DNA of 64,000 nucleotides from Ceratothoa steindachneri (Eukaryota; Arthropoda; Malacostraca; Isopoda; Cymothoidae): the NCBI GenBank assembly GCA_963969495.1, contig OZ018321.1, positions 71,056,286-71,120,285 on the forward strand. Reading direction: 5' to 3'. This document shows, in pieces, positions 8,074 through 54,801 of the stretch; the stretch's first letter is position 1; every line of letters starts with the position of its first letter. The position numbers and the translations under genes were made by a program. The notes under the pieces were generated by a model. It was not told where the DNA came from and did not search any database. It saw only the letters and a list, made by a program, of their open reading frames with translations.

Positions 8074-9105
8074 ATGAACAAAATGTCGTCGTTTGAGAGG
8101 TCTAAACTCCAAGGAGAATCCGTCGGTTTAAGTGCCAAAGACCTTGTAACTTATATACAGGAAGAGGAGAGAAATGAGAGAGCTTATAATAGAGAACGAG
8201 AAGAACTAGAAAGGGCTGAAAGTGTACTAAGAAAAATTAGAGAGAGCGAAGAACGTTGGAGAATTCGTCAATATGAACTGGAATCGAATCGTGATTGACT
8301 CGAAACCAGTTCAGTAAATTCCAGGGTAGGAACCCCTCAGTCAACCTCCGTTAAACTTCCCACGTTCTAAAAAGGAGAGGACTTCGGATCTTTTATCACT
8401 CACTTCGAGAACATTTTTTAACTTAATCATGGGGACATATAGGCGGATGGTGTAGCTAAGCTTCTTCCCCTCCTAAGCCCACCGCTCCGTGATCTAGTCG
8501 TACCACTTTCCTCTGAGGTTACGGTGGATTACTCTACCCTCAAGTCTAAACTTCTTGCGGCGTACAATATGACGCCTAACTTCTACCAAGCCAAATTTCG
8601 CCACGTCCGCATCCAGCCAAATATGACCTTCCGTTATTTTGGATATACCCTTTCCTGGACTTTTAATTTTCGGTTAGACGCATCGAAAGTCCCCCACGAT
8701 TATAAGGCCCTAGTAGATTTTGTTTTACAGGATCAGTTGCTGGCATCACTAACACCAGAGATCCGCTCGTTTGTGAAGGATCGTCGGTGTAACTTCTTCA
8801 AAGAGTGCATAGAAGAGGCAGATATCTTTGCGGCGAGCCCCAACTTATACCCTAAGGAAAATAAAATGCCTCCCCCTTCATCCCCCAAGAATAAATTTAA
8901 TAACTCGTGGTTCCCTCCAAAGAACTTCCCAGAATTCGCCAAGATTACGTGCCCCTTTATGCCCAGAAATTTCACTCCATCAAAACCCCGTGACGTCAAG
9001 CCCCTCATAACTAATCCCCCAGCGTCAACTTTTCCCCGTAGGCCAATTATATGTTTTGCGTGCGGTGTCGAAGGCCACACGCGCCCAAATTGCCCCCAAA
9101 ATTAA
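8074..9105 (+). pseudogene. gag: Gag polyprotein with CCHC zinc knuckle, element 1
   Basis: One reading frame of about 343 codons encodes the structural protein that would pack the retrotransposon RNA. Four stops interrupt it: TGA at 8296-8298, TAA at 8368-8370, TAA at 8419-8421 and TAG at 8440-8442. The N-terminal third is charged and probably coiled coil (EEERNERAYNREREELERAE). The middle holds a capsid-like block (DYSTLKSKLLAAYNM, then FVKDRRCNFFKECIEEAD). A proline-rich linker precedes a zinc knuckle near the C terminus, CFAC-GVEG-H-TRPN-C, which fits C-x2-C-x4-H-x4-C. The minus-strand gag at 49409-50498 aligns along its whole length (STLKSKLL, KECIEEAD, the same knuckle spacing), which supports treating the stops as mutations and not as introns. 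Confidence 0.9.
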
Positions 9106-9287
9106 AAAATCGGTGGTAATCCCATTCACCAAGTCCACCAGGTGAATGCTGCTCCCGTTTTCCTTCCATCGCGAACAGAGTCTCAAGATCTGATCTCATA
9201 TCCCAGTGCCCCAGGGCACTATATAAATTTCTTCTTCGACAAGAATTATCCAGGAAATATTAAATTTGAACCGGAAGCGTTAATGGG

Positions 9288-9641
9288 TGCCGAGTCTCCA
9301 CCCTCGTCCGCGATACCAGGTGCCCGTGTATCATGGTATCAAATGAGCTTCTTTTCCCGGTGGCTCCCGACCACAAAAAGTTTGTCGTAGTCCGTAACTA
9401 CTTGGGACGCGCAAACCGCTTTCCCATTGTAAACTGTTACCTCGAGTGTAAGTACTTTTCCGGATGGGCTGAAGTCGTGTCAGCCCCTAACCAATTATGT
9501 TCTGTTTTGGTAGGGCAGTGCCCCCAAGTCTCGTCTAACTCTGTGGCTCAGCCCATTATCACGAGAGCCCAGGCAGAGAAAGGGCGTGTTAAACCGGCCC
9601 CCCTTCAGAAGGGCCCAAGCATATCGAAATCCGTTCGTTAG
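9288..9641 (+). pseudogene. Retroviral-type aspartic protease, element 1
   Basis: This frame carries STLVRDTRCPC, which I read as the catalytic Asp-Thr-Gly loop of a retrotransposon protease with the glycine changed to arginine. About 40 residues on comes RFPIVNCYLECKYFSGWAEV, then VLVGQ, resembling the flap and C-terminal part. The minus-strand element has the equivalent STLARDTSFPC and ECMLFTSWAEV. The upstream codons (9142-9280) are in another frame, so a frameshift lies near 9280. After ITRAQ the homologous element continues to integrase, but here the sequence turns into reverse transcriptase, showing an internal deletion. Cleavage of Gag-Pol would be its normal role. Confidence 0.7.
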
Positions 9642-9924
9642 AGATCTTCTCCCCATTCCAATTCATCCAAGAAAGGCTTTTAACACTGAGATTAACAATC
9701 CGCTCAACCCCCAAATCCTTGAAACCTCTACGACAAATTATTTTTCCCCGATAGTTCTGGTACGGAAACCAGATAACTCTTACCGCATGTATGTAGATTT
9801 TAGTAAATTAAATCCCGTGACCGTTTTCGATGCTGATTTGATTTATTTAATGGATCAAAACCTGCACTTGTTCAAAAAGAAAAATTTATTAGCGAGCTCT
9901 ACACCCGCTAAATTTTATTTATAA
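9598..9924 (+). pseudogene. N-terminal part of gypsy-type reverse transcriptase, element 1
   Basis: The frame gives SPIVLVRKPDNSYRMYVDF followed by KLNPVTVFDADLI, the first two conserved blocks of Ty3/gypsy reverse transcriptase (PIVLVKK, then R-x-C/Y-VD-[YF]-R-x-LN). It stops at 9924 before the catalytic Asp blocks, RNase H or integrase. The minus-strand element has the same blocks (FPIVVVKKPDQSFRM, then LNAVTVFDAE). It is a fragment and cannot be functional. Confidence 0.85.
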
Positions 9925-13960: not shown

Positions 13961-14337
13961 TTTAGTTTGAAAACATTAAAATGAATAGTTTCAATAAATT
14001 AATAAGGATGTTAGCAATTTAACATCATCTTTCCTTAACATAAATTAATATATTTTATTCATTAAATTTGTAAGAGAATTAATCCGCTATTTCTGAGAAA
14101 TTAGATTTTAACAATCCTATGAATTTTTTCCCGTATTTCAGTTTTAATGACTATTATATCTTCAATTCTATGCTCCATATTTACATAAGAAGTGGCTTAG
14201 TTAATTATTCTGAATTTTAGAACCTGAAGTTTGATGGTTGGACGAAATGATTTTGAACGAAATTAACTACATGTAACATTCTCATTATATATATAGAATA
14301 TATATATATGATGTCGTAACTAACTAACTTTGGTGCA
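13961..14337. other. AT-rich spacer
   Basis: About 380 bp of AT-rich sequence with a short TA run (14285-14310). It holds nothing recognisable and ends at the left inverted repeat of the next element. Confidence 0.5.
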
Positions 14338-16515
14338 CTGGTTCCGAATCTGTATTCAAATTTACCCTAGCATGTAAGGTTCCTGCGTTGTGCAACTAGA
14401 CCCAATGGCTCCCTTTGTCACCTTGTATCAATTAGTGATATAATTATTATGACTTTGAGAAGAATGAGACATTTCTGGGCAAAGGTTTGGAATCGGGGCA
14501 CCTTATTTGGCATTATGTATGTCCTTTTGCAGACCCAGACAAGATATGTAATACATATAAAAGAGGTAGTACTCACCTAACTATAAATTTCTTCAAAAAT
14601 ATTTGAGACTCTTGCTCTTGCTCTTGTACCTGCATACAGGATGCCCAGAATTAATTAGTCACCCATCATGCTTTCGTTGAAGTGGCCTTGATACCTGCTT
14701 TCCATCATTGCGATATCTCGGTGAAACCTTTCTTCATGTTCGTTACAAATATCACCCATATTAGATGGAAAGAAATCTAGATGCGAATGCAAGAAATGCA
14801 TCTTAAGAGATATCCGACACCTTAATCGTTGATTGGCCTTTAGCATGTTGTCCACTAGTTCTTTATAGTTTTCAGCCCTATGATTACCAATAAAGTTCTG
14901 CACAACATGGACAAATGAATCCTATGATGCCAACTCAAGTGGAGCTAGTTTATTTCTGAACTCCCTGTCACGTATCAATTCTCTGATCTCCAGCCCTACA
15001 AAAATGCCAGCTTTAAATTTTTCACCAAATTTATAATTGAGATACTGGAATCCATCAGAATCATGGGCAAAGTTCGATATGAAGTGGTGGAAGGTCGATC
15101 TTATGTGAATGTACCAAAGGCATGTGCTTCACATTGTATCGGCCAACTATGTGTTCTTCTCTTTCGGGACACCTTTTGACAATACAATGAATCCTGTCTT
15201 CCCCGAGGTTCCTAGGCATAATAAGCACATATTCTTTGTATATCATAGCTGCAGTCCAAGAAGTAAAGAAATTACTTTTAGATCACCACAGATATTCTAC
15301 TTATGATGGAAATAATGAACACCTTCCAAAATAAATTTCATCGAGTCATATGTCTCTATCATTCCAACAATAAGTGCGACAGGAATTGAAAGTTTTTTGT
15401 TTCCATTGTGTAGCAACACAGCTTGAGGCTAGCAGTGCTTGCATCGATGAATATTCTCTATTCATCAGGTAAATGCTCGTTTCCTAGCTGATCCATGAGG
15501 CCCTTAACATCAGTACAAAAAAAACACCATCTTCCTCTTTATAGAAGGCAGCTAAGGCTTCATGGCGTTTCCAGAAAGTAGGTCTTTTTTCACCGATTTC
15601 TAGAAGATTCGATTGCTTAGTCGGGAGTCCAGCAGTTCTGCGTTCTCCTTTGACAATAACAAATCCCTCAACAAAATATTCAATCTTTCTTTATTTATCA
15701 ACTGGATCTTCTTTTCCTTAGAATCCCCCTCATGCATTTCATCGTCATTGCTATCCTCCTATTTAGGCGATGAATCATCTTCTTTGACTGCATTAGATGA
15801 TGGAAGAACTTGGATTGGCATCTCCATATTATGGGGGATTGGTTTTATAGCTGACTTACAATCTGGATATACAATTTTGGACTTGTTCCTATTTGAGAAT
15901 TCCGCAATATTTGTCCTACAAAAGTAGTAATCAAAAACATGATTTATTGGCACACGCCACAACATTCATACTGCAAAAGGCATACCTTTCCATTTGCCAT
16001 TTAAACACTGTGTGAGCCCAATATAACACACAGTACAAGATTTGTGAGGTGACCAAGGCTTGTCTTGGTCACCAACTTTACAAATAAAATAACAATTGTA
16101 TGCAGTTTTGATTCTTTTAGCTAAATTTTTCCGCTGGTTGATTGGAGTATATCTTCCACAGATATAACAAAGGTTGTCTAGGCTATTTATGCATCCTTTC
16201 TGATTCATGTTTTCAACTTAGTTCGTATATACTTTGTTATATACTTTTGTACAATCTTATTTTATTCAAAAATTAATTGAGAGATAAATCTGAAAGAAAA
16301 ATGCCATTAATCACTGTATGTAAATACCGTTTCAACACCGCTACTATAATGGCTATATTTGACAACATGATAAATCAGGGGTGTAACGCAGGAAACAAAC
16401 ACATCCTCTTACTACGGTAGCCGAAGCAACACTGCCCATATGTGTAACTAAGAGTATGTGTGTAACTCAGGAACCTTACATGCTAGAACAATTTTGATTA
16501 CAGACTCGGAATCAG
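14338..16515 (-). mobile_element. Putative DNA transposon with terminal inverted repeats (copy A)
   Basis: Inverted repeats of 57 bp lie at 14338-14394 and 16459-16515. They match at 46 of 57 positions by my count and share an identical 19-base core, CTAGCATGTAAGGTTCCTG. They stand 261 and 251 bp from the ends of the decayed gene between them, a symmetry expected of a cut-and-paste element carrying one transposase. True outer ends and target duplication are not resolved; similarity may extend outwards (AATGATTTTG occurs on both sides). A related end is seen downstream of copy C near 55089-55138. I cannot assign a superfamily. Confidence 0.6.
14655..16208 (-). pseudogene. Cys-rich putative transposase, copy A (decayed)
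   Basis: On the minus strand, pieces in several frames line up into one protein of roughly 500 residues that matches copies B and C. In order: an N-terminal zinc-like block (LCYICGRYTP, then DQDKPWSPHKSCTVC; 16208-15966); an acidic linker; FIDAS followed by VLLHNGNK; ICGDLKVISLLLGLQ; LPPLHIEL; FIGNHRAENY; MHFLHSHLDFFPSN; and HEERFHRDIAMMESRYQGH near the end (14655-14903). Stops and frameshifts lie throughout. The aspartates in FIDAS and GDLKV and the glutamate in EERFH are kept in all copies and could form a DDE-type site, which is inference. I know this architecture only as an uncharacterised multicopy protein family of invertebrate genomes. Its position between inverted repeats suggests a transposase. 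Confidence 0.75.
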
Positions 16516-17571
16516 CATACTTGATTTAGTTTAAATCACAAGCTAATACCCAAGTAGCAAAATCATTGTTGACTAGTGTAAGCGAAAAGTACATGGAACT
16601 TAATATACAATAAATGTATTTAAAGGCCCACAAAAATGAAAACTGGTATCACAAGCCGGAAAAAGGCTAAGGAAGATATTACTTAAATCATTAAAAGCTT
16701 AAGAGAGTAAAGGGCAGAAATAGAAGCAGAGAAATAGGGGACAATATTTTAACCGCTATATGAAGGTGAATGGGATTCGAACTTGTGTCATCAAGTGCTC
16801 ATTGCTATCAGGAAAACCAGTTTTCATTTCATTGTGCCTTTAAATAGAAATATATATATATTAAGGAATGGTTATATTCAACAGCAGAACAAGTATTGTT
16901 TAGCTTCCTGAGAACTTTTTAATTTCCATAAGTGACAGTTTATTAAAGAGAAAAAGATCGTAAAGGATCATTTTAAATCATTATTCATTATTTGCCCGAC
17001 TCACCTTGCGACTAAAGTGGTCATCTTCTTGGCTACACTGATAAATATGAATAAATTTATCTATATACGTACAAAATACAAGCGTTTAGACGAGCAACAC
17101 TCATTATATTTTTTAATATTAAAATATAAAAAAAAAATAATTTGTGCTGAAAATAAAAAATAAATTAGTCTAAAATGAACATATTTTACGCTATTTATTG
17201 TAGAAAAACAACAGAAAAAAACCGTAAAATTAACACCCATCTATCAGAAATAGTACCCGATGTCACGCCTATCTACCTAAAGTTGCGGTGCGTACTCTCA
17301 CCCACAGGAAATGAAAGTTGGTAAAAAGGACGTAGACCTAGAAGTAGGTTTTGCTTGATGGAGACGTCACGCATTAGACGTGAGTTCCTCTTTGAATTTC
17401 TCTTTTTTTTTCTAAATTCTTCAGTTAAATATGTGTTAAGTTCTTAGCTGAATTTCTTCATATTTATCAATGTAGTCACTTATGGAAATTAAATAGTTCT
17501 CAAGAAGTTAAACAATACCTCTTCTGCCGTTGAATATAACCATACCTTTATAAAAACATGACTTTATTACA

Positions 17572-28515: not shown

Positions 28516-29447
28516 CGAGGGGCGGTCAATAAGTTTTGCGAATCGGTAATGCAAAACAGAGGCAAGGGGGGTGACTGTTTGTGGCGATGTTAGGAAAAGT
28601 TATGACAAGTGAGGACCTGCAGCCGCACGCTCCTTCCTCGTCTATTTAAGAAGCAGTAGCAGATCGCAAATCGTCAGTCACAAATATTTGAACAATGGAG
28701 AAGGTAAAGCACCGCGCAGTGATCAAATATTTGACCAAGGAAGGCAAGAAGGCAAAAGAGATCCATGAACGCATGGTTGCAGTGTACAGCGCCTCGGCCA
28801 TTCCTATGCAACCATTACTCGCAGGAATAGAGAGTTCCGCTATGGTCCTGAGTCCCTTGAAGATGACCCCCGTCCAGGACACCTGTCAGACGTGACCAAC
28901 GAGGACAATGTAGCCCGTGTGGAGAGGATGATCCTCGAAAATCGACGGGTGAAGGTCGGAGAAATCGAGAGACAACTTGGAATATCACATAGAAGTGTTA
29001 TGAACATCATCCACTAGAATTTGGCCATGACCAAGGTCTCTGACCGTTGTGTCCTCAGAAACCTCACGCCCCATGATCAACTTCAAAGTTGTCAAAGTCC
29101 ACAAGGTCAGAGTTGCACAAGCGGCCCTGCGCGAGTGCGGATTCGAGGAGCTCAACCATCCCCTCTACAGTCCAGAAGTGGCCCCTAGCGACTACTTTTT
29201 ATTCCGCCAGCTCAAGGCTGCACTGTGTGGACGCCGGTTTAGGAACGATGAAGATGTCCAGCTCGCCGTCCAGGAGTGGATTGAACAGCACTCGCGAGAT
29301 TTCTCATTGTCGGGAATTCGAAGCCTCAGGGACAAGTTGCGCAAGTGCATTGAAGTCGAGGATAGGTAGATTGAAAAATAATAAAACACTTTTCCTCATA
29401 TCTTGTTTCCTTATATCCGAATTGCAAAAATTATTGACCGCCCCTCA
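28516..29447 (+). mobile_element. Mariner-type transposon inserted in Tc1, internally deleted
   Basis: Terminal inverted repeats start CGAGGGGCGGTCAATAAG at 28516 and, reverse-complemented, TGAGGGGCGGTCAATAAT at 29447. They stay similar for about 30 bp (TTTTGC-A-TCGG). A TA stands immediately outside each end (28514-28515, 29448-29449), the target duplication typical of the superfamily. At 932 bp it is shorter than a usual mariner of about 1.3 kb, because the middle of its transposase is missing. Confidence 0.92.
28695..29369 (+). pseudogene. Mariner transposase, internally deleted
   Basis: The N-terminal part begins MEKVKHRAVIKYLTKEGKKA, a mariner DNA-binding start, and continues in other frames through ENRRVKVGEIERQLGISHRS (28936-28995) to RNLTPHDQL. 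The text then jumps to VRVAQAALRECGFEELNHP and YSPEVAPSDYFLF, which holds the third catalytic Asp of the DD34D triad, and ends with GRRFRNDEDV and KCIEVEDR. The segment that should contain the first two catalytic aspartates is absent or unrecognisable, so it is inactive. The junction is near 29075-29110. Confidence 0.88.
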
Positions 29448-29449
29448 TA

Positions 29450-29815
29450 TGGGGATGCATGTTAATTTCCGAGGTGAGGCGTCTGACCGTTTGTGGTGGC
29501 ACGATAACTTCAGTGAACTACCAAGCTATCTTGAGAGATTACATGCTTTCCTTAGCTCGAGATCTCTCCAGAAATGCCCGGAATGTGATTTTTCATTTTC
29601 ATTTCATGTGATTTTTCATAAGCCTGTGTCCAACATATAGTTGTTCTGCCACAACAATATAACGTGGATGGAGTGGTCATCTTAGAATACGGATAGAAAT
29701 CCAATAGAAAATCTCTTGCAATAACTAAATGAAGCCTTATGAATTCGTCAGACAGCTTCTAATGAGCAAATTTTGAAATTTCGTGCTAAATTTGATCTAT
29801 TAAATTCATGGAACA
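29450..29815 (+). pseudogene. Tc1-type transposase, 3' part
   Basis: Right after the second TA the Tc1 frame resumes: WGC completes the SVMLWGC motif begun at 28503, then TSVNYQAIL follows. Further on, in another frame, NTDRNPIENLLQ (about 29692-29727) is the D-x-NPIENLW block near the third catalytic residue, and NEQILKFRAKFD leads to the C terminus. Several stops are present. The clean resumption across the TA shows that mariner entered an existing Tc1 copy. Confidence 0.8.
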
Positions 29816-33639: not shown

Positions 33640-35100
33640 GTAATTATGTATACTGCTTTATTCTGTATACGTTGCTTCTTGAAACCGTATACGTAGACAT
33701 TGTTGGATATATCAAGGTAGGCTGTATCATGGCCTGGTAGATCTTTTTCTTATTTTTCATGTTTAGTTTTATTAATCTGTAGAGTAAAGTTAGCATGCCT
33801 CGTGCTTTGTTTATTCTTTCAGGCACGTGTTTCTTGTATCCATTTTTGGTAATAGTTAGGCCTAAAATCTTGCTTTCACCATTACACCTGTATCGCTATC
33901 CATCTACGTAAACGTTAGATAGATTTCTGTGATACATAGATATAATTTTAAATTTATCTTTATTCAGTTTAATTTTCCATTTGCGTTTATACTCGTTTAG
34001 ATTTTATATTTCTGTTGCCGTTACTCTGACCTCCATCTAAGGGTTCCGATAAACACAGGGAATTAATTAAGTGAAATCATCTGCGTATTATATGTTCACA
34101 CAGCCCCTCGTTTCTGGGTGGGAAAATGTCCGAGGTACGAGTATACACTGAGTATAGCGAAGGACTTAAACACCCTCCCTGAGCGAGGCCCGCATTAAGC
34201 TTGCATCTTTTATCTTGGTAATTCCCCCTTGTCTATGTATGCATATCTTTTCCTGACGTAGTCACATAAAATTCTTTCCAAATAGTTGTTCATTTCCAGA
34301 ATTAGAATTTTATGCTGTATGCCTCTTTGCCAGACTTTATCCAATGCTTTCGATAAATCCTAGCATACAATGTCCATACTGCATTTCTCTGCTTCAACTT
34401 TACCTATTTTATCTGTAATCATTCTAAGGGCCATCTCCGTATTCTTGTGCTTTCTGAAGCCGAATTGTTGATTGTTCCAAAGATTGTTTGCTGTGTGATA
34501 TTTATTTAAACTTGTGTTCATGATTTTTTCAAACACCTTCCCGATGTAGTCGAGAAGGAAAAGGGGTTGGAAGTTTTCGAACTCCGAAGGTGGTTTTCCC
34601 GGCTTCGGTGTAAATATCATTTTGGCTATCTTTAACTCATCTAGAAAGTATTCCGTGTTTATACAAGCGTTAAACACGTTCCGTATCCCTACGAGTATAT
34701 TATTAGGTGCTTCTATATATTTTTTTCTGGTGAGGCCCGATTTCCCAAGGTCTTTTTGTTTAATATTTGAGATGGTATTCTTTAATTCCTCGATTGTGAT
34801 TTTGGCATTGAATCCATCGTTCGCATACCGTTCCTCTTCTACCTAGTGATATGGGAAAGTCCTCTCACTCCGTTCATTTAGTTCATCAATTATTTAGTTT
34901 TCGAAGTCTATATCGTAGTTTTCATTTTCCTCTTCGCCGATCTTGAGCATTCTTTTCCAGTGTTACCTGAACAATTTTTCAATCTCGCGTTCATCTTCCA
35001 TTAATTTCCCGTTTCTGTCCTTAATCTTTATTTTTTCTGTACCTTTAGCATTTCCCATTCTTTTTATCATTTCTCCAAAATTCTTGGGGCAATAGCTCGT
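33640..35100 (-). pseudogene. LINE-A reverse transcriptase, decayed
   Basis: Recognisable blocks on the minus strand are FTPKPGKPPSEFENFQP and KVFEKIMN (34360-34677), FGFRKHKNTEMAL, the catalytic YADD (34078-34089, preceded by a stop) and, near the end, LGLTITKNGYKKHVPERINKA and LIKLNMKNKKKIYQAM (33826-33644). The order and spacing fit jockey-type reverse transcriptase. Frameshifts and about ten stops separate the blocks. Confidence 0.8.
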
Positions 35101-35111
35101 TGTCAATATTT

Positions 35112-36060
35112 TTAAAGGCTATGTCCAAGTATTCTCTTTGTTTGTCCGTTATTGCGCTTAGTAGTTCTCACTTCTTCGTTTTCAGATTGCAGTATTTTCA
35201 TTTCTTCTGTCCATATAAAGTATTTAAATGTTTTGTATGTGTTTCTGGGTATTGCATTTTCGTTAGCTGTTTGTATTCGTGTCCATATTTTTTCCAGCTC
35301 GCCGTCGATTTCTTCTAAAGTAGCTTCATTTAGTCTGTTTGGTGCGTAGTCATTCAATTCTTGTTTGTATTTTACCCAGTCTGCTCTATGGTATGCCTTC
35401 CATTTTTTAGCGAGTATTTGTATTGGTTGCTGGTTCACAGTAAGTAGTGTCGCTGTGTGGTCGCTGCAGATAACATCTACAGGTTCCATGTGGTTGTTGA
35501 AATGAATATTATTGTTTGCTAGGCAAATGTCTGGAGTTGTCACTGTTCTGTCTTTAATTAGCGTTGGGTACTTTGGTCTTAGTCTTCTTATTATCCGTCT
35601 GTCTATTAGAGCTTGTTGCTCTTTTGCTGTTAGGTTTCTGTTCCTATATCCTATATACCTGCATTTTGCTTTCAGGTCTCCCAAAAACAAAGTTGGAAGT
35701 CTATTGTTAAATATTCTCACAAAGATATTTATTGGGAGTCCAGGTCGTCGCGGTGGTTGGTATCCCGTAGCGATTATTATATTGGTTAATTCCATTTTAA
35801 CATCAATTGCGAGGTAATATTTGGTTAGTCCTTGCTTTGTTTTGTACTCTATTCCTTTTTTTATTGCTATTGCTACTCCGTCGTGTGGTTCTTTTGTGTG
35901 ATTAGTCACTATTAAGTCGTAGTTCTATATTTTTAGTTTGTGAGTCTCAAGGTTAATAACTTGATCTGAAATTTGAATGATATAGGGATCTATTTCTCTA
36001 AAGATATTTCCGTATATGTTTTTTTTATCCTTCTAGCCATTCGTATTTATTTGTAGAATT
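35112..36060 (-). pseudogene. LINE-A endonuclease domain of ORF2
   Basis: It begins ILQINTNG (36059-36036), the first block of LINE apurinic-type endonucleases. EPHDGVAIAIKKG, LFLGDLKAKCRYIG (the GD-x-NA block), TPDICLANN and CSDHTATLLTV (the catalytic SDH) then follow in the 265-codon open frame 35909-35112. A stop after ITNG-type residues and a break before 35909 inactivate it. The domain nicks target DNA to prime reverse transcription. The remaining 100 codons lead into the linker before reverse transcriptase. Confidence 0.85.
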
Positions 36061-36061
36061 C

Positions 36062-36960
36062 TTAATTTACTATTATCCATCTTGTTTGTATGTTCTTAAG
36101 CGGTTCTTCTTTTGAAGAAAGTGGAGTTATTACCCTAAATTTATTTTTATCTTTTCCTGGTATTTCTGCCTTCATCTCTGTCCTTGCTGAGGTCTGAATC
36201 TTATCTATTTCACATTTCGCAGTTGGTATTTCCGGTCTTTGGCCACAAGGCGAGGTGTCCCTAGTCAATATTTTTTGTTTTTGCTTTTGTGTGTGGTTTT
36301 TTAACGTTTTTCTTATTATTCTCGTCGGTGCTGCGCTCAGATTCTGTTTCCTCCTTTCTGTTTCTTCCTCTTCTTCAGATTTGCTTTCCTTTCTTTGTGT
36401 TTCTTCCAAGAGTTTGTTTTTTGTATCTTCTGAAATTTTTAAGTTAAATATAGCCGATAAATCAATATTTTCGGGAATTTCATTGGCTCCAGCAAATTTT
36501 CCTTGAGGATAGAGTTCAACGTGGTGGCATATGTTCCTGGTGGGGCAATGTTTAAGACGTGTGAGTGTAGAATGAATGTCAGTATTTCTACGTTCAGAGT
36601 TCCATCAAGCGTCATTTTAGTGCTTGTTCCATTGTTTTTCGTTGCTGCTGCCGCCGCATATGAGGTGTTTTTTGTTCCTTTTATTCTTTGTTGTGTTTCA
36701 GTTTCTTTTCTCTTTATTATTTTTTTCGCTTCAGACATGTCATTGCCATTGTTCTGTGGATCCCTCCACAATTATCACACTTTTTCGTGTTTTGTGCAGT
36801 TCCTCCAAGAATGTGATCCACTGCATTCTGAACATATTTCTCCTTCATTTATTGGGCGGTTTGCGGTGATGTGGTCTTCCATTTTTTAGCATCTAAAACA
36901 GATTTGTATATTGTAATACTGGTCCTTTTAAATGTCACAAGTTTTGAGTCTCATATTGTA
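36062..36960 (-). pseudogene. LINE-A ORF1 (Gag-like, zinc knuckles)
   Basis: Reading leftwards from about 36930, three zinc knuckles follow each other: CFRC with a following stop and DHITANR (last cysteine lost), ICSECSGSHSWRNC, and CDNCGGIHRTMAMTC. Downstream is a charged tail (36771-36439 and 36409-36062) rich in Lys, Glu and Ala, including TSYAAAAATKN. Jockey-type ORF1 proteins carry such triple knuckles and bind the element's RNA. At least one stop and a frameshift break the frame. Confidence 0.75.
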
Positions 36961-37869
36961 TGCGAGGATTCCCTTAAGTAGTGCCTTTTTGTGATCTCGG
37001 TTTACTCGCACACTATTTTAAACACACATGTGTGTTCCTTAAATTTGATTATGTCGTGTATCTTCATCCAGGGTTGTTGTTCCATTATTTCATGTTTTAT
37101 TTCATCTGGGGAGTGTTCCCCCACCCATGATTCCTAAAAGTGATGGTTCCTGCCGATGAAAGTAGCAGTTCGACATCGTTGTTTTCCCACACAGATGACA
37201 ATAAATCCATTAGCTGTTTCTATGTATTTGATCAGGGCGATTTGTAAATCCTTGAAAATGCTTTGTACCACATCCTGTGGTTTTGGTTTTATTCCGTTCT
37301 GAATTAGCCGAAGTGTTGCCTTTTGGTGAACTCCTTTGGGTTCATGTTCATTTTTATGCCCCCTCCCCTTGTGGTTCTCTGGAAAAATAATGTAGTAGAT
37401 TATTTATCTACTCCACTAGTGGAAGAAGCCCCCTATCTGTTCTTAATACTACCTCGCCTGCTTGCTCTGGAGCGCACGCTCCCTGATCACCATACCTTAT
37501 TAGCCCTAGCTCTATAAGCCGTCATGCAGTCAGATTTGGGCTCGTCACCGATAATCGGGCTCCTTCTCTGGCCCCCTAACGGAGTCTCCTTGGGAGTTCA
37601 CTACATCCTACTATTGAATGCTTCTGAGATCTTGCTGGTGGTCAGGTTATACTGTGCTATATGGAATTAAAGTAGGAAAATTTGAGATATAAACAGGTAT
37701 AGTATGAGATAGGAAAAATTTAAGGAGATAACCGCTTAGGGGTTATTCCCCGCAAATAAGCAATAGGAGGTATCTCCAATCAGTAGCTGAATTCAACAAG
37801 AAGTGATACTACTCAAATGGAAGTATACTATGAATCACCAACAAATGAACATCCCAAACTCTGCAACCA
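36961..37869. other. Possible LINE-A 5' region and spacer
   Basis: GC-richer sequence from about 37330 to 37620 may be the 5' untranslated region of LINE-A. It includes a small hairpin (AGTAGAT/ATCTACT around TATTT, near 37391). No coding motif. Confidence 0.3.
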
Positions 37870-39000
37870 AGCTGAGCTCAACGCCTGGTGCGAGATCTTA
37901 ACCTTCCAAAACAAATTGCACAGTTACTTGGCTATAGACTGAAGGAACACAGTCTTCTAGTTTCTGGAACAACATTCACTTTGTGCCATCATCGTGAAGC
38001 AAAATTCATTCAGTTCTTTAAGAAAGAGGATTCTTTAGTTTCCCGTTCAAATATTTCTGGCCTTAAAGAATACATGGGGATGCCGTACAAAGCAAATAAA
38101 TAGAGGATCTTCATTGATTCTTCTAACAGAAGTTTAATGGCTGTTCTTCTCTACAATGGCAACACGGCTGCATTTGTGCCAATTGGCCATAGTATCCAAA
38201 TGTCCAAAACCTATGAAAATTTGAAAACACTGATAACTGCAATCAAGTAGCATCAGCACAATTTTCTCATTTGTGGTGATTTAAAAGTTATTGCTCTCCT
38301 ATTAGGTCTTCAAGGGACATACACCAAGTATCCATGTTTTTTGTGTCTCTGGGATGGTAGGGCTGACAGCCAGCATTATGAAAAAAAGGAATGGCCACCA
38401 AAAACCAGCTTTTACCCGGAAATCACAATGTGAGAGCTATGCCACTAGTTGACCCCTAGAAAATTCTGCTACCAACACTACACATCAAATTAGGGCTTTT
38501 GAAAATTTTTGTGAAGGCCTTGAACAAGAATGGAACTGCTTTCGAGTACCTGTAGTCAGTTTCCTCGTGTAAGTGAAGGCAAGCTAAAGGCAGGAAACTT
38601 GGTTAGCCCTCAGATTCGGGAATTGATGAAGGAGAAGCATTTTGGGGAAGCATTAGCAGGTTTCGAGGTGAATGCCTGGTTTTCCTTTAAGCAGATTGTC
38701 CATAACTTCTTGGGAAACACCCGCTCCCCAGAATATGAAAAATGATCCAAGATCTGATTTCAAGTTTGCAGCAACTTAGGTCTAGAATGAGTGTGAAGTT
38801 GCACTTTTCCACTCACATCATGGCTATTTTCCCACCAATTGTGGGAACTAGAGTGTGGGAACAAGAAGAGCGTTTCCATCAGGATATTTGCACCATGGAA
38901 ACTCGATAGCAGGGTAAATGGAATGTCAGCATGATGGCGGATTACTGCTGGTCATTAAAACGTGATGATCCCGATGCACAGCACAAGCGAAAATCACAGC
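37870..39000 (+). pseudogene. Cys-rich putative transposase, copy B (decayed, 5'-truncated)
   Basis: One frame runs from 37888 to about 38430 with stops at 38101-38103 and 38248-38250: LNLPKQIAQLLGYRLKEHSL, FFKKEDSLVSRSNISGL, RIFIDSSNRSL (Asp at 38116), LICGDLKVIALLLGLQ (Asp at 38278), YTKYPCFLCLWDGRAD. Other frames continue with GFLKIFVKALNKNG, KLKAGNLVSPQIRELMKE, HNFLGNTRSPEYEK, MSVKLHF and QEERFHQDICTMETR (Glu near 38868), then ADYCWSLKRD. The N-terminal zinc-like block present in A and C is missing. I found no inverted repeats around this copy. The two conserved Asp and the Glu make a DDE-type nuclease possible; function is unproven. Confidence 0.75.
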
Positions 39001-40604
39001 GGTACGCCTTCCTTTGAATTTATATGTAGGCTTACCATGAGAGCATGTTTTTTGTTTACATTCATTCGATTTGATGTTGATGATTTTGATTCATTTCATG
39101 ATAACCGTGATTTATTTCATGTTGATTTGGTGTTCATATGTTCCCTAAAACTAAAATAATGTGCTTTTCCCTGATTACTTATTCATTTCAAATAAGTAAT
39201 AATATATTTAATATGCACATTTATTGTTATAATGAATTAGTATTTTATTCAAAATCTTGACGTGATAGAAAAAAATGGTTTAGATATTTAAAATCAGCAA
39301 CCTAAAAATATGTAAGATCACATCCATGAGTAAAAATAAAAATTAAAAAATTAAAAAATGCAGACTAGTGTTATTGCAGTGCTTATGTCTAAAAGTTGAT
39401 TGCTCAATTTGTTAACGCTAAGGTGTGTTATTCCAAAAATGAACATAGGTATGACGATTAAATGTATCTCAATCATGATTGGTTGAATTTTTTAGTATTA
39501 TGAGTAGATGAAATGACTATTTATATAGGTGTACTTTTGTGGAAAAAGAGAGTACAGAAAGATTTATCTTTATTATTCAAGAAGAAAAGTTGTCATTACT
39601 GTTTATTCAAGACTTATTCCAGCTAATTACCAAGAAATAAAGCATCCAGCTATATATATATATTTTCTTTTCATCCTACTGAAGCTCGATGATCACAGAA
39701 CCCAGTCTGCAAAACTACAAGAGAGAATTCTTACGCAGGTCGTAAACGAACAATAATCTCCAATACAGGTGCCTTTTTGCGGAGCAGTTTTCTGTATATC
39801 GCTTCTCACGCAAACTCTTCACAATGTTTTGGTGATGGGAACAGATTTCACTGTACGTGAATAAATGAATAGATTAATAAATTAATATATGTGGGAAATT
39901 AAAGCCTTTTAGCTGTAATTTGTTGCTGAAAGATTTTAGATTGTGCCTATCCTCAATGAGATAAGCTTCTTGAAAACAAGTGCAAATCGTGTTAAAAGAA
40001 AAACCTCACTAAAACAGAAATAGAAAGGTCGATTGACTAGGAGAAGCTAGATTTTTCTATTAGCAAAATATTTTTTAAATATTTAGAGGCTACTTGACAA
40101 ACCTTGTCTATTTTAAAAAGATTCTTAAATTTTAAGCAATTCCAAGCTTCAAGAAGAACTAGGAGCAAATACCTTGAAAATAGGATATAAATGTATGAAA
40201 TTTAATCAATAACGCATGATAAATAAATTGTGATGAACACTACTTTCACTTGAAAGGGTTCATGAACTTCCTCATCAAATTTATTTTTCAATCAAAATAC
40301 TGTGTATAAGAAATTATACCCAAGAGGTAATGCAAGTGGAAAATTGAAAGTGCTGCTTCTGAATATCTGAATCCAGCTATCAATTATTCTATTCATTTAA
40401 GCAAATTGTAAGGAATAGGAGCTTAAAAAATGCCCGTAAATATTTTAGATGTTTATTGACTTTTGAAATCTTTAAAACATAATTCATACTCCCGCCTCTA
40501 GTAATAGCATAAATGGACATAATTTTTTAACAATACCAAATCTAGTAGTTTCCATAAAAGATACTGTCAGCGTCTTATACAAATTAACCTCTCTAAAGAA
40601 TTAC
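39001..40604. other. AT-rich spacer
   Basis: About 1.6 kb of AT-rich sequence. A 75-codon plus frame (39529-39756) has no recognised motif. Confidence 0.5.
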
Positions 40605-44900: not shown

Positions 44901-47050
44901 CTTAACAAGCAGTAACAAGGAGTAACAAGGAAAGGGGGTATCTTTGGAATAGCAATCGAGCAGGCACATGGCTGCTCAATTGTTTTGCGTCCCTAAACGG
45001 CCACTTTTCAAAACTGGGTTTAGTCTTGACTTGAACTGGTCAACAGATTCACTGTTGACAACTTCCACTGGAAGTGCGTTCCACTCACCGCAGATACTGT
45101 AAGTGAAAAAATTTCCACACAGATTGCGGTTGTAACGCTTCAGTTCAAGTTTGAAGCCGTGATTGTGCGTTCTGTTCCCCCTCAGTGTGAAAATAACCCG
45201 GTAGTGCACATTGTCAAACCCTCGAAGTATTTTAAAAACTTCGATGAGCTGATCACGCAGTCTACGGGTTTCCAGCGAGAACAGATTTAATTCCCTTAGT
45301 CTATCCTCATAACATTTATGTCGGATAGAGGGAATCAGCTTGGTTGCCCTGGCTTGTAGGCGTTCCAACCTTGCGATATCCTTTCGAAACGAAGGACTCC
45401 AAAATTGTACGGCATACTCCAGCTGCGGCCGAACAAGGGAGTTGTACAGACAAAGTACTATCTCTTTGTTACGGTATCTAAACTGGCGCTTTATGTAGCC
45501 TAACATCCTTTGGGCTTTCTTCTTTGCCTCGATGCACTGTTTCGAGAACTTGAGGTCGCTAGTGATAGTTACACCTAAAGTCCTTTTCAGTGTCACTTGA
45601 TTCAAGATCAGTGCCCTTAAGGATATACCGAGATTGGGGGTTTCTGTGGCCGATATGCATCACTTTGCCACGTGTTCGACCACTCTCCAATCTTCCCAAG
45701 ATTTTCCTGAAGGCGGGCAGGATTTCCATCCTTTGCAACGTTCATACCAAGCTTGGTATCGTCGGGAAATTTGGTAATCTTGGCAACCATGTCACCATCT
45801 ATGTCTTTGACGTAGATGATGAATAGTAGTGGTCCCAGGACAGAACCTTGAGGTACTTCGCTAGTAACGGGCACCCACTCAGAAGCCTGTCCATTCTCTA
45901 CCACCCGTTGCCGTTTGCCACTTAGCCAGTTCTCGATTCAGCCCGCTACTTTTCCGTCTATGCCGTGCACTCGCACTTTCCGGAGAAGGCGGCGGTGTGG
46001 TACTTTATCAAAGGCTGTCTGAAAGTTTAAGTACACCACATCCACCGCCTTGTCCCGATCGTGCTCACTGAACACGAAGTGTAAGAATTCCACAAGGTTC
46101 GTCAGGCATGACCGTTGCCTTCGGAAGCCGTGCTGTGGAACTCCTCAGTAGCAGGTTTGACTCTAAATGCGACGTCATTTTGTTAACCATCATGCTTTCT
46201 ATGAGTTTACCGACTATCGAAGTCAGACTAATAGGTCGGTAGTTTGACGGTTGGCTACGGTCTCCTTTCTTGAAGATAGGAGTCACATCCGCCTCACGCT
46301 AGTCTTTACGAACGCATTTTGTCTGGATTGACATGTTGAAGATTGCACTCAGGTGTCGTGACACTTGATCGCGCACTTTTTTCAACACTTTAGGTAGAAA
46401 GCTATCCGGGCCAGGTGACTTATTTGTCTTTAGGTCACTGATCTTCTTTTTTATTTCCTCGGTGAAGTCCATATCCTCCAGCTTTTCCCCCAAGAAGAAA
46501 TCCATTGGCTGGGGGATGGGACCACACTCTTCAGTAAACACTGAAGAGAAGTAGTCGTTGAGGAGGTTAGCATTTTCTGCATCTAAATGCTTTAATGACC
46601 TCTCCTCATTTCTCAAAGGGCCAATCGTTCGACGGATTGGTTTACGGCTGTTCACATATCCAAAAAACTTCGTGGGATTCTCTTTACAGATTCTCGCCAC
46701 TCGGAGTTCCTCAGACCGCTTAGCCGCCCTTATGCTGGACTTCACTCTTCTGGCTATCCTCCTGTATTCGTCAAAGTCGCCCGAGATCTTCGATTGCCGG
46801 TACACAGTTCTCTTCTCCTTAAGTAGTTGGCCGATTTTTCGATTAAACCACTTTGTTTGAACAGAAGACCGACGGGGACATTTCAGAGGGATGAAACGTG
46901 ATTGAAGACTCATGAATGTGGTTTTGAAACTGTTCCACGAGTCTTCAACATCATCGCACACTTCTAGCCTCGCGTCAGTCAGTCCAGCACGAAGACCTGC
47001 AAAGTCTGCTCTTTTCAAATCGAGTTTCCTAGATTTACTAGTTACAGGCC
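44901..47050 (-). mobile_element. LINE-B: 5'-truncated non-LTR retrotransposon nested in element 2
   Basis: About 2.15 kb inserted into the reverse transcriptase gene of element 2. It keeps reverse transcriptase and the C-terminal part of ORF2 but no endonuclease, as expected from incomplete reverse transcription. Its 3' end (left) consists of imperfect copies of CTTGTTACTC read on the minus strand. The host gene resumes on either side (ends KTYYQ at about 47051, resumes DSARKF at 44900), with perhaps five codons missing. A second copy lies at 57041-57875. Confidence 0.88.
44976..47018 (-). pseudogene. LINE-B ORF2 reverse transcriptase
   Basis: The open frame 47018-46299 gives RWFNRKIGQLLKEKRTVYRQ-type sequence, then NPTKFFGYVNSRK and LKTNKSPGPDSFLPKVLKKV. 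The next frame gives TPIFKKGDRSQPSNYRPISL and GKLIESMMVNKM, both canonical LINE reverse transcriptase blocks. Later come DKAVDVVYLNFQTAFDKVPH, EVPQGSVLGPLLFIIYVKDI and the catalytic FPDDTKLG (45904-45617). The last 209 codons (45605-44976) carry LGVTITSDLKFSKQC and LCLYNSLVRPQLEYAVQFWS, typical of CR1/jockey-like ends. Several frameshifts (near 46300, 46150 and 45620) inactivate it. The first Asp-Asp pair position reads F-P-DD instead of the usual F-A-DD. Confidence 0.9.
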
Positions 47051-47430
47051 CTGATAGTAGGTCTTACACAAATCTATCTCTAAAATGAACTTAGCCTCTT
47101 CAAATAGATGTAGGGTCTGCTCTATAAAAGGGATAGGCTCAGCGTCGAAAACTGTTACGGCGTTCAGCTTTCTAAATTCTACGCGCATGCGAAAAGACTG
47201 ATCTGGCTTTTTGACAACAACAATGGGAAAGCAATAATCTGACTTGAAAGGTTCAATGATCCCTAATTTTAGCAAGTTCTCTACTTCGGCGTTAAAAGTA
47301 GGACGCAAGTGAACGTGGAAGGGGTATGGTTTGGATCGAATTGGCTCCTGGGTGGTTAGGGCTATATCATGCTCAAAATATAAAGAGCAACCAGGCTTCT
47401 CGAAAATTACATCGGTGGAAGTCAGTCAAA
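47051..47430 (-). pseudogene. Reverse transcriptase N-part, element 2
   Basis: Frames on the minus strand give LYFEHDIALTTQEPIRSKPY and HVHLRPTFNAEVENLLKLGI, then FPIVVVKKPDQSFRMRVEF, KLNAVTVFDAEPIPFIEQ and KFILEIDLCKTYYQ. These are the first three conserved blocks of Ty3/gypsy reverse transcriptase with the first catalytic Asp in EIDL. LINE-B starts right after YYQ. Integrase sits upstream, not downstream. Confidence 0.88.
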
Positions 47431-48079
47431 AAAGAACCAATTGTGTCTTTTGAGGGGGTTCCAGCTGGGGATTTAAATCGAGTTCAGGGGCAGAGTTTTC
47501 ACGCGACCCGAGGAGCGAAGGGAGAGGGTAGTTTTTATCAGACTCGACAAGGACGGTTTGAATTAAATAGAGGCTCAGATGGATAAAAGGCTTCCATTAC
47601 GGACTCTTCATCAAGGAAAATGATATTATTAATGAAGGCGCGGTGGTGATAGCGCTTAAGCATATTTACATAAAATAATTTGTTCCCTGAGGGGTTCCTG
47701 TATTCCGTAATTCACGGGGCCGCGTGCTTCTAGGATTTGAAGAAGGTCTTTCTATTGGGACAAGAGCTTATTTGTCTCCATGGGTAGGATGAGCAGCACC
47801 TCGTCACCGGGATGAATCGCCTTTCTTTTGACCTAACGTCCAAATTGGTCCTATACTTTTCTAAGTTTAGGGTTTGTATTTTTGTAATCTATATTGTTGC
47901 ATTCTTCCCAGCGGTTCCTAAGGTCTAACACGTAAGAATACGAGGATTTGGTCTCATACAGGTGAAGATTGGAAAAACATTTATTCAATTTACTTATCGG
48001 GCCTTGAACGTTTCGGCTATACAAAAGATCGAAAGGGGCAAATCCTAAAGTTCTGTGGGAAATTTCTCACAGACGAACA
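47431..48079 (-). other. Pol spacer of element 2 between integrase and reverse transcriptase
   Basis: This is the C-terminal extension of integrase and a linker, too decayed for me to assign motifs. Plus-strand open frames here are shadows. Confidence 0.5.
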
Positions 48080-48918
48080 GGGCAACTGACAGGTATCGAT
48101 GCAATTATTGGGGCTGAGCATGGCATAGCTTTTTGAAAATAGTCTTCAGAGTACCATTCAACTTTTTACAGACGCCGTTAGCGGAGGGGTGAAAAGAAGA
48201 GGTGACTTAAGGCTTGATCATAAGGAACTTACAGACGTATTCCTTTAGTTTAAAGGGGAACTGTCTACCTCTGTCCGACAAGGTCTCCTTCGGGATGCCG
48301 ACGCGAGAAAGAAATATAAATCAGGGCCACCGCACATGGCAGACTATCTACCTTTTTAAGGGGAAAGGCGTCGGGCGATCTCGTTGCAAAATCAACAAGA
48401 GTGAGGTCGTACAAGTGTCTTTAACTAGACAGGGGGGGGGGGGGAATTGGGCCAATCAAATCTATAACCACTATAAAGGAAGGCTCTGAGACAATTCTGG
48501 TCTTCTGGAGGGGGGCAGGTGGCATTCGTTCTTTTGCTGTAGTCTTTTGACAAATGTCACACGACCTACAAAACTCGGCAATTTCTTTGGCAGCACCGGG
48601 CCAAAATAAATAACAGAAGATTCTCTAATCTGTTTTATTGTGACTAAAATAACCAGGCAGTAATCCATTGTGGGCGAGTCGGAGGACTTGGGTAACATGT
48701 GAATGGGGGATACATAAGGAGCAAGCTAGGGTTCTATCCTCAGTCAAGCTGGAGCGAAAAAGGAGTCCATCGCTAATGAGGTAAGCGACTTCTCTTTGAC
48801 CACGGCCAAGATCCTCCTTCATCATTTCTCGCTTTTTCCCACAGGGGCTAGAAGGTGGGGCATTCCTTCTGAGCGCTTGCAATAGTTTCGTTTGGAAGTG
48901 CTCCAAATTCTGGGGCAT
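48080..48918 (-). pseudogene. Integrase (zinc domain plus catalytic core), element 2
   Basis: The H2C2 zinc domain reads SHVTQVLRLAHNGLLPGYFS, then HNKT, and after a frameshift GAAKEIAEFCRSCDICQKT (48698-48530). The core follows: SFIVVIDLIGPIPPP (48480-48440, over a C/G homopolymer), LVDFATRSPDAFPL (48390-48360), GIPKETLSDRGRQFPFKLK with the second Asp (48297-48241), and FHPSANGVCKKLNGTLK (48195-48140), where the catalytic Glu of the N-x-x-x-E motif is Lys. Integrase would insert the element's cDNA. Its place upstream of reverse transcriptase is unusual for this reverse transcriptase type. Confidence 0.85.
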
Positions 48919-48989
48919 AAGGATGTTCTAATGGCACGGGCGAAGCAGTATTTTTCAGCACCTGAGCCCTTGTAATGTCGGGCTGTGCG

Positions 48990-49330
48990 ATGGGGTTAGG
49001 GGAGAGCTGCAGCCCCTGGCCAACCAATACGGCGCAAAAAATAATGGGAGTTGCTATCACTTCGGCCCAACTAGTAAATAACATACATTCGAGATAGCAG
49101 CGGACCACAGGGAACCGATTTGCACTTCCTAAGTAGTCATGGAATTTATCGTGGTCGGAGCCCACTGGAGGGAGCAACTTTTCTGAGGCCGAAGCAAGGA
49201 AAGCTAGTGTCTCTTGCGAGAGTTGACACTCTGTAACCATTAACAGTTCCATTTTTGAACTCAAAGGCACCGGGGGAGCTTTTGTTAAACAGGAAATTGA
49301 CGTACTGCCCCAGGGGACTGCTTGATGGGG
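48990..49330 (-). pseudogene. Aspartic protease, element 2
   Basis: In one frame the sequence reads STLARDTSFPC, the catalytic loop (DTS in place of DTG), and after a frameshift RFPVVRCYLECMLFTSWAEV and FCAVLVGQ. The plus-strand element has matching text at 9288-9641 (STLVRDTRCPC, GWAEV, VLVGQ). ITRAQ marks the end of the region before integrase in both elements. Confidence 0.65.
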
Positions 49331-49408
49331 AAGTTGCGCCAGGATGAGGAAGAGAGAGGCACTTATTTGTTGGATTAGCTGTTTTTGAGCAGAACGGAAT
49401 TTTGAGTT

Positions 49409-50498
49409 TTAGGGACAGTAGGTCCCTACATGTCCGGGAACACCGCAGAAAAAACACACTATAGTCCTTCGAAGGTAATCCGACGCTGGAGTATTATTTA
49501 TGTGGGGCCTAATATCACTCGATTCTGGTGGGGGATGGTACTTGGGCTTAAAGGGACCAGGTACCTTCACAAACCTGGGCGAGTTCTTTGGGGGAAACTT
49601 AGAGAGGTTACCTTTACTTTTGGGCGATGGGGGATGGAAAATGGAGGATGAGACTTCGTGGGGTCTTTCGGGTATAGGTAGTGACTTGTCGCGTGTACAT
49701 CCGCCTCTTCTATACATTCCTTGAATGAAGACAAGCGTCTATCCTTCACGAATGCGTGGATTTCGGAGAGTAGTGCAGCCATCAACCGATCCCGTAAGCA
49801 GAAATCAAATAGGGATAAGTCCAACCAGAATTGAAAAATCCTCTGGAGGGTGAAGCCAATTTCGCGGTAGATATGGCCAGGAAGTATCCTCGCCTGGCGG
49901 AACTTTGACCTATATAAATAAGGATTCATATTAACATTCGATAATAATTTCGACTTTAGGGTGGATTAGTCGAGGTTGGCTTTGGCTTGGAGCGAAATAA
50001 AGATTTCCTGCAGGTGGGTATTGAGGAGGAGGAGTACTCGAGCGACCTCATCGTCTTCAATGTCCCAATGGTTCACTTTGAAAATTTTCTCAAAGTGAGT
50101 TAAGTAGGCGTCGAAATCCTCGTGGTCCTTAAATACCGGCAACTTTACTGATGGGGTTTGGGGGGATTCATTCCTCCAACTAACGGTAAGGGTTTCCAAA
50201 TGATTTTTGTTAAGCTCACGCTCATGTTGACGAACTTTTTCTCTTTTTTCCATTTCTCTATTCTCTCTTTCTCTTCTCTCTTCAGCTTCTCTTTGTTCTT
50301 TTATATTTTCTCTTGAGCTTCTCTTTCTTCCTTTTCACTTTTCTTTGCCCTTTGATCTCTTTTTTTCTCATGAATATAGGTAACTAGGTCCTTGTCTGAC
50401 AACCCAAGGATCTCCTCCTTGCTGTCAGAAATGTTAAATGACGATATCTTGTTGGTGTAAATGCGCGTTTGGCCGCTCGGCGCGTCCACGGAGCTCAA
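49409..50498 (-). pseudogene. gag: Gag polyprotein with CCHC zinc knuckle, element 2
   Basis: Four frame segments form one protein: an N-terminal MSSVDAPSG with LSDKDLVTYIHEKKRDQRAK (50498-50301); a coiled-coil stretch and LPVFKDHEDFDAYLTHFEKI (50253-49966, ending in a stop after ANLD); STLKSKLL then RSKFRQARILPGHIYREIGF and VKDRRLSSFKECIEEAD (49929-49567); and, after a frameshift, a proline-rich linker with CFFCGVPGHVGTYC (49717-49409), a C-x2-C-x4-H-x4-C knuckle. The gag at 8074-9105 aligns over the full length. Confidence 0.9.
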
Positions 50499-52163: not shown

Positions 52164-53059
52164 GGTACATTATTAAATCTTTCGGTTAAATAATAATAAG
52201 AAAGTTTAAAAATTCAGTAGTTACGCTGTGTAAAATGCATGGAAAATCGGATAAAAAAGCCTGATAACACATTTATGTAATTTGCATATAAGTTATTATT
52301 GTCCAAATCTTTGATAGAGGTAAAAGTCTAGTTATTGCCAAGAATATCTCATACTTCTGGTGAGTAGTTCGGATGAACTGCAGCTGAATCTGAGATGTTC
52401 TCATCCGAACCATGCGAGAGTTATATCTGGCTGGCAAAGAAGCGTCCAATAATATTTCACTACAGCTTAAAGTATATTAGGAATAGGCCTGAGTGTTGTA
52501 GACATCGTCTATTTTCAGTAACAACATTTGGTTCCGTTGATGCGCTAAAGTATAACTTTTGCGAGAGAATGGCACCGGGTGATGATGAGAATTTGTTCTA
52601 CCATCAATATTAACAGAAATAATTTTTTTTTTTTTAAATTAAGATCCAAAAAAAGATAAAGAATAGATTAAACGCTAAACCGTTACTACGCAGCCACCCT
52701 CACAAGAAATTTATTTAAATATCTTTAAAGAAGTAAAGTTAATTAAAATAGTTTTAAATCTAGCAGAATTCACAGGGCACTTGAGACATCGTCTGCAATG
52801 ATAATACAGGGGAGCAATTTTAATCAAATTTTCTTGTGACTTAGATTTATCTGCCAATTTTAATTCGTTTTTCCATGCTGATTTCAAATATATAATTCAT
52901 TTTTATTTGCATGCTATAGTTATTCTGTAATTTCTATTTTCTCGTTTCCCCGAAAGCTGCTCTCCGGATGGACAGAGAGGGTGCTTGTAGAAAGCGAATA
53001 CTTCACAGTACTACATAGTAATAAGATTGTAATAAGTGTTATTGTGCAAAATATTGACA
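52164..53059. other. AT-rich spacer
   Basis: About 900 bp with no recognisable gene; no inverted-repeat partner of the copy C end was found here. Confidence 0.5.
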
Positions 53060-54800
53060 TTATTGTTTTTTTCCAGGTCTCATGTTAGAGTGATTGCTTG
53101 GTCAAGAGGCAATTGCGGTAATGATCCAGACACCTTCTGCTACATGTGTGGCTATTACATGCTAGTTCGTCAAAGGCTCAATATATCAAACTTTGTGATC
53201 CGCACTTATAAAGCATATTTTGATGTTCCTCTTGGAGATCGAGATAAGAAGTAGCACCATATGCTGTTTGCCATAGTTGTGTAAAACATCTTCGAAATGA
53301 AAGAGAAATGGTCTTCATTTAGGATCCCCATTGTGTGGAGAGAGCCAAAGGATCATGTAACGGACTGTTATTTCTGTCTGGTGAATTTTAAAAGGATTGG
53401 CCAAAAAATAGGCACAAGATCAACTACCCCAACATTCCCTCGGTGATCCGGCCAGTACCTCATTCTGAGTCTTTACTAGTTCCGATTTTCAGTGGATATG
53501 CTACCTCCGACGATGAAAATGATGTATCTGATATGGACGTCCACGGAATGGATTCAGAGTCTGCAGATTCATCATCAGATGCTAAACAGTCATTAGCTCA
53601 TCACTGTTCCAATCAAGAGGATTTGAATGACTTGATACGTAATTTAGTGTTCTCCAAGAAAGCTACTAAACTTTTAGCCTCCAGGTTGAGTGAAAGACAT
53701 TTGTTTGAAAGGTTGGTACGGGTATTATATTACCGAAAAAGGAAGAGTACATTTGTTAAATATTTCTCTGAGGAAAAACAATTTGTATACTGCCACGATG
53801 TTCCTGGTCTGTTTACCAAGTTGGGACTTGGCACCTATAGCCCGGCTGAGTGGAGACTGTTTTTTTGGATAGCTCCAAGTGTAGCCTTAAGTGTGTCCTT
53901 TTGCATAATGGCAATGACTCTAGTGCAGGTTCTCTCGTCACTCTGTCCATCTGCGGGAAATTCACGATGATATAAGAATGGCCATGGATTTACTTGAGTA
54001 CCATGAACAAATTTGATCATAAGTGTAGACCTTAAGATGGTGAACTTCCCACCTGGCCAGCAGAAGGAATATACAAAGTTTCCATGCTATATCTGTATGT
54101 GGGACAGTCGAGCCCGTGACAAACACTGGTTCCCAAAAAATGGCCAGTTCAAAAAACTTTGGAAGCAGGAATGCCAAACATTGTTAATGAGCCAATCGTA
54201 AGTCGAGAGAAGATCGTTTTCCCTTCACTTCATCTCAAACTGGGGTTGATGAAGCAGTATGTTAAGGCGTTGAACACTGACAATGATTGTTTTCAGTACA
54301 TAGTATCGGCGTTTCCTGCTTTATCCTACGAAAAAGTAAAAGGCAAGAGTATTTGATGGTCCCCAAATCCGAAGACTTACGAGTGATTCTAGATTCCTGA
54401 ACACCATGATTGCAAAAGAGAATGCAGCCTGGCTCTCATTTTCTGCCGTTGTTCGTAACTTCTTGTGAAACAAAAAAGCGCATAACTACCAAGATCTGGT
54501 TACTAATATGATTTTAGCATATCGTGATCTGAGATACAACATGAGTGTTAAGCTGCATTTCATAAATAGTCACCTCGACCGATTCCCAGAGAATCTAGGA
54601 GCCATGAGCGACGAATAATGGGAAGGATTCCATCAGAATTTGATAGACAATGGAACAGCGCTACTAAGGTCACTGTGATAGACACATGATGGTGGACTAC
54701 AGCTAGACGAATAGAAGAAATGAGCCAGAGAAAACTTACAAGAGAAAGAGTTACAAACGCAAATATTTGCCCGATTAAAATCAAGAAGAGGTCCTCCAGC
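53060..54800 (+). pseudogene. Cys-rich putative transposase, copy C (decayed)
   Basis: This is the fullest copy. Blocks in order: TFCYMCGYYMLVRQRLN and LGDRDKK (53130-53253); IPIVWREPKDHVTDCYFCLV (53326-53388); IRPVPHSESLLVPIFSGYAT opening a 175-codon frame (53443-53970) with an acidic Ser-rich linker, DLNDLIRNLVFSKKATKLLA and EEKQFVYCHDVPGLF; then a frameshift in a run of seven T (53860-53866), after which LDSSKCSLK and VLLHNGN are read; ISVDLKMV and YTKFPCYICMWDSRARDKHW (54018-54126); LHLKLGLMKQYVKALN; and MSVKLHFINSHLDRFPENLG with E-x-FHQN near 54630. Repeated C-x2-C pairs suggest zinc binding. The same Asp, Asp and Glu positions are kept as in A and B. Function is unproven. Confidence 0.78.
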
Positions 54801-54801
54801 C

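Follow-up and report, generated by a model that had tools for sequence, protein, structure and literature searches.

Our study identified three decayed gene copies, A, B and C, in a window of 64,000 nucleotides from the isopod Ceratothoa steindachneri (GenBank assembly GCA_963969495.1, contig OZ018321.1, positions 71056286-71120285), one from each of three families that are very likely Chapaev3 cut-and-paste DNA transposons. Computational analysis of the 3.93-Gb genome (529 contigs) recovered the families, their ends, target duplications, empty sites and conserved residues, along with the predicted fold of the encoded protein. The assignment to Chapaev3 follows published hallmarks, with the named Chapaev3 proteins compared through their description only, and is the most likely one. 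A sequence-only reading of the window had proposed a mobile and undescribed DNA transposon; sharp ends shared between copies, duplications and empty sites uphold the mobility. The elements were once mobile, and all the family-A copies examined are decayed.

Using the relative P0001 as a tblastn query, the window is matched at 16208-14592 (minus strand), 37885-39005 (plus) and 53102-54642 (plus), and when the 120 listed relatives served as queries (E <= 1e-4) the match starts were confined to the 2-kb bins of these copies, which confirms that the gene recurs at the three places first proposed. The copy A transposase gene (14592-16208, minus) contains frameshifts and stops and aligns with P0001 in three main pieces at 60-85% identity. 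The copy B remnant (37885-39005, plus) preserves the first aspartate (FIDSS), the second (GDLK), C-x2-C and E-x-FH; its N-terminal part is absent, both by tblastn with P0001 and by comparison with L049, a longer copy of family B. The copy C gene (53102-54642, plus) is broken. Reading the sequence also verified the motifs that had been noticed (FIDAS in A, FIDSS and GDLK in B, LDSS and VDLKM in C, and E-x-FH), as well as the spacing of 54 residues between the first two aspartates (D256 and D310 in P0001).

Copy A, a Chapaev3-type element of family A, extends over 14305-16578 on the minus strand, as delimited by the arms of another copy, L022 (aligned at 14305-14434 and 16578-16411), and by comparison with 27 other copies. 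The 57-bp inverted repeats that the sequence-only reading had placed around the gene are real: an inverted-repeat search gives arms of 68 nucleotides (nt) at 14322-14389 and 16464-16531 (plus strand), 78% complementary, and blastn of 14200-16700 against the window gives a 52-bp (base pair) inverted-repeat match (E = 2.8e-10). They are not the element ends, however, but a subterminal block that lies inside the element in other copies. The genome search for family A, with 14338-16515 as query, produced 3379 first-look candidates, of which 40 were scored; among these, 30 places besides copy A span the query from base 38 or before to base 2175 or beyond at 83-87% identity, and copy A and 27 of these 30 places were read with their flanks. 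In the other copies the repeat extends about 73 bp further left and about 63 bp further right than had been proposed; it reaches 5'-CACTAGCCAACAAATTTTAAC at the left end and ...ATTGTTGACTAGTG at the right, and outside these limits the flanks diverge. Family-A length is 2280-2384 bp in the 22 copies with clear ends, and the reading frame is broken in 28 of the 28 copies examined. Copy A itself keeps its true right terminus, 5'-CACTAGTCAACAAT (16565-16578, minus), with TAA and then G outside; about 40 bp, the outermost of its left end, are gone, beside an AT microsatellite. Just to the right of copy A there is a 38-nt inverted repeat (16610-16647 and 16816-16853, 82% complementary), possibly a small separate element.

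Copy B (37782-39370, plus) has lost its 5' part and also lacks about 120 bp relative to L049; its right terminus, ...GCAGACTAGTG, lies at 39370 and is followed outside by TTA-T. Forty family-B places were scored, copy B included, and 33 of the other 39 span window positions 37802-37804 to 39371-39377. L049, the single other family-B copy read, is 2260 bp long with tips CAATGGTCTGC and GCAGACCAGTG, complementary by eye at 10 of 11 positions (a terminal match that the local aligner did not find), and the TAA on both of its sides constitutes the duplication sample of this family. Copy C (52805-55201, plus) has both termini (TACAGGGGAGCAAT...ATTGTTCCCCAGTG), as located by aligning family copies, and reading its flanks reveals a TAA target site duplication on the plus strand at 52802-52804, preceded by A, and at 55202-55204, followed by T. 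The segment 55089-55138, previously taken as a similar end, does resemble the repeat, but it is subterminal and was rejected as the right end, the element running to 55201. Copy C also carries an insert of about 100 bp (54803-54902, plus; a gap between aligned pieces, query 2404-2503), which is skipped by the family copies whose alignments continue on either side of it; these have about 25 bp there instead. A 102-nt sequence occurs at 54802-54903 and at 55266-55367, 99% complementary and inverted around the right end of copy C; it was rejected as a transposon part because its left arm is the insert that family copies skip, and it looks like an insertion made during repair with the flank as template, or else like an artefact of assembly.

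The duplications were counted by gapless matching, with terminal motifs and mismatch limits that were picked after inspecting the copies. Both ends are clear in 22 of 28 family-A copies (copy A is not among them) and in 17 of 20 family-C copies (copy C is included). The 3-bp flanks are identical in 14 of the 22 family-A copies, with a permutation mean of 6.5 and 14 reached in 2 of 20,000 permutations; TWA (W being A or T) stands on both sides in 13 of 22, concordant in 13 of 13 and within A-TWA-T in 12 of 13, and the fourteenth identical pair is GTA/GTA. For family C, the 3-bp flanks are identical in 10 of 17 copies (permutation mean 5.5; 149 of 20,000 reach 10), all ten being TWA and nine lying within A-TWA-T. 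Two of the 22 family-A copies and none of the 17 family-C copies have identical 2-bp flanks, and 4- or 5-bp flanks are identical in none of the 22 or the 17, unlike Transib, which makes a 5-bp target duplication. Flanking inverted repeats in other copies and target duplications in families A and C are both present, as a mobile family predicts. To these we add the empty sites, for which the joined flanks of 24 duplication-bearing copies were compared with the copy loci read and with the window. Five comparisons span the junction, excluding the self-match of copy C; two are ambiguous (L007 against L022, and L022 against L007) and three are clean: L032 against L009, with an uninterrupted ATAAT; L038 against L009, with an uninterrupted ATTAT; and L009 against L038, where one CTA stands in place of the TTA of the filled site. 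Empty and filled copies of the repeats share 71-80% identity. Since the sites of L032 and L038 are mutually reverse-complementary, two family-C copies lie, oppositely oriented, at one and the same target position in a repeat, and their placement against L009 suggests that one ATWAT site was used repeatedly.

Turning to the protein, D256, D310 and E509 are conserved in 30 of 30 relatives and E506 in 29; C329/C332, L377/H378 and H492 are found in all 30 and H487 in 29, and in the N-terminal part C14/C17, C61 and C94/C97 occur in 30 and H55 and C58 in 29. The structural model has an RNase H-like order of core elements, RAG and Transib are the structures that it matches best, and most of the predicted core matches RAG1, the protein that cuts antibody genes, and Transib. 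The conserved D, D and E and this predicted order support the earlier proposal of a DDE transposase with an RNase H-like site. A Pfam search with seven fragments and the 30 relatives gave nothing convincing, with nine families matched weakly; zf-AD was matched weakly by 4 of the 30 members (best E 0.0017); profile A1 gave two matches among the PDB sequences (E 0.022 and 0.14), neither of them a transposase, and did not recover RAG1; the viral structure library gave no match with E <= 0.001; and the viral_contigs scan with A1, a possible place for the published bracovirus copy, gave 20 pattern stretches, none a relative. One search gave 1885 relatives at E <= 1e-3; of the 120 listed, those that carry a name are annotated as "hypothetical" or "uncharacterized".

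We propose that a transposase of about 557 amino acids (aa) is the product of a single gene. Its N-terminal Cys/His-rich region would probably bind zinc, and behind it would lie an RNase H-like DDE core that carries an insertion, as do those of RAG1 and Transib. The transposase may bind the terminal and subterminal inverted repeats; the element would then be cut out at its CAC/GTG ends and inserted into an A-TWA-T target, where a 3-bp stagger would leave the TWA duplications. The catalytic glutamate would be either the invariant E509 or E506.

According to PMC4079192, Chapaev elements have CAC/GTG termini, all the Chapaev3 elements examined there have TWA duplications between A and T, and the Chapaev3 motifs are C(2)C, LH and H(4)H; the named elements are Merrow, Garfield and Conan, Garfield of the silkworm measuring 2,289 bp (556 aa) and Merrow of the sea lamprey 2,451 bp (78+484 aa). 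The same features are found here: the TWA duplication within A-TWA-T in families A and C, with TAA/TAA in copy C and L049; tips CACTAG...CTAGTG in family A, CACAGG...CCAGTG in family C and a GTG right end in copy B and L049; the three motifs and the conserved D, D and E; and an element of about 2.3-2.45 kb with a transposase of 556-562 aa. Single copies depart from CAC at the left tip, copy C with TACAGG and L049 with CAATGG. In the present elements the gene reads as a single exon, whereas Merrow and Garfield have two and most other Chapaev3 apparently one, according to that source. Because the published Chapaev3 elements agree in ends, duplication, motifs and size, the description of the transposon as undescribed is not supported; the kind of element, an animal DNA transposon distantly related to RAG1, is already known, the biology proposed by the sequence-only reading was right, and its end coordinates are corrected here. 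PMC4411706 groups Chapaev3 with Transib and RAG1 and gives it a Chapa zinc-finger domain, citing Kapitonov and Jurka 2008 (Repbase Reports) for Chapaev3. The Cys/His pattern at residues 14-97, judged by sequence, is compatible with such a domain.

It is important to consider other origins for these families. Family-A termini read CACTAG, and CACTA elements produce 3-bp duplications too, so that another member of the CMC group, CACTA/EnSpm or Chapaev proper, could be envisaged; we regard it as very unlikely. Pfam includes a CACTA transposase profile, yet the nine Pfam families to which the 30 members have weak matches include neither this profile nor a Harbinger-type transposase, although TWA duplications are also typical of PIF/Harbinger. 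The element moreover has one small gene and its duplication is mostly TWA within A-TWA-T, as in all the Chapaev3 elements examined in PMC4079192. Two observations weigh against our assignment: an exact duplication is absent from 8 of 22 family-A and 7 of 17 family-C copies, and no curated profile fits the protein, the Chapaev3 proteins having been compared by description. The latter would favor a further, new group within the RAG/Transib/CMC assemblage, Chapaev3-like in ends and motifs, but the testable Chapaev3 hallmarks agree, and such a group is very unlikely. That a multicopy gene is broken in every family-A copy examined might also be expected if segmental duplication had spread a family of host genes and the inverted repeats had arisen by chance; sharp common ends with unrelated flanks, TWA duplications and empty sites make this explanation almost negligible.

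If the families are Chapaev3, an unnamed multicopy gene gains a likely name and function, which helps the annotation of animal genomes. The core match to RAG1 and Transib agrees with the relationship given in PMC4411706. There is also a slim chance that the family forms a clade of its own next to Chapaev3 within the RAG/Transib/CMC assemblage; if true, it would provide an independent lineage on how the RAG1 core and zinc domains were assembled.

The window also contains other repeats. Open frames at 29031-29640 resemble the C-terminus of a mariner transposase, a resemblance that we presume from the string PSDYFLF; the family-A copy L025 is flanked by DNA like 29274-29449 (91% identity), and the family-C copy L035 by DNA like 28584-28747 (90%). 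By eye, frames at 8443-9924 (plus) and 47042-50334 (minus) look like remnants of retrotransposons, namely of gag with its CCHC knuckle and of reverse transcriptase, and those at 34360-36604, 44976-47063 and 57034-57744 look like remnants of the endonuclease/reverse transcriptase of long interspersed nuclear elements (LINEs). Two of the LINE-like pieces, 44976-45659 and 57034-57744, are alike.
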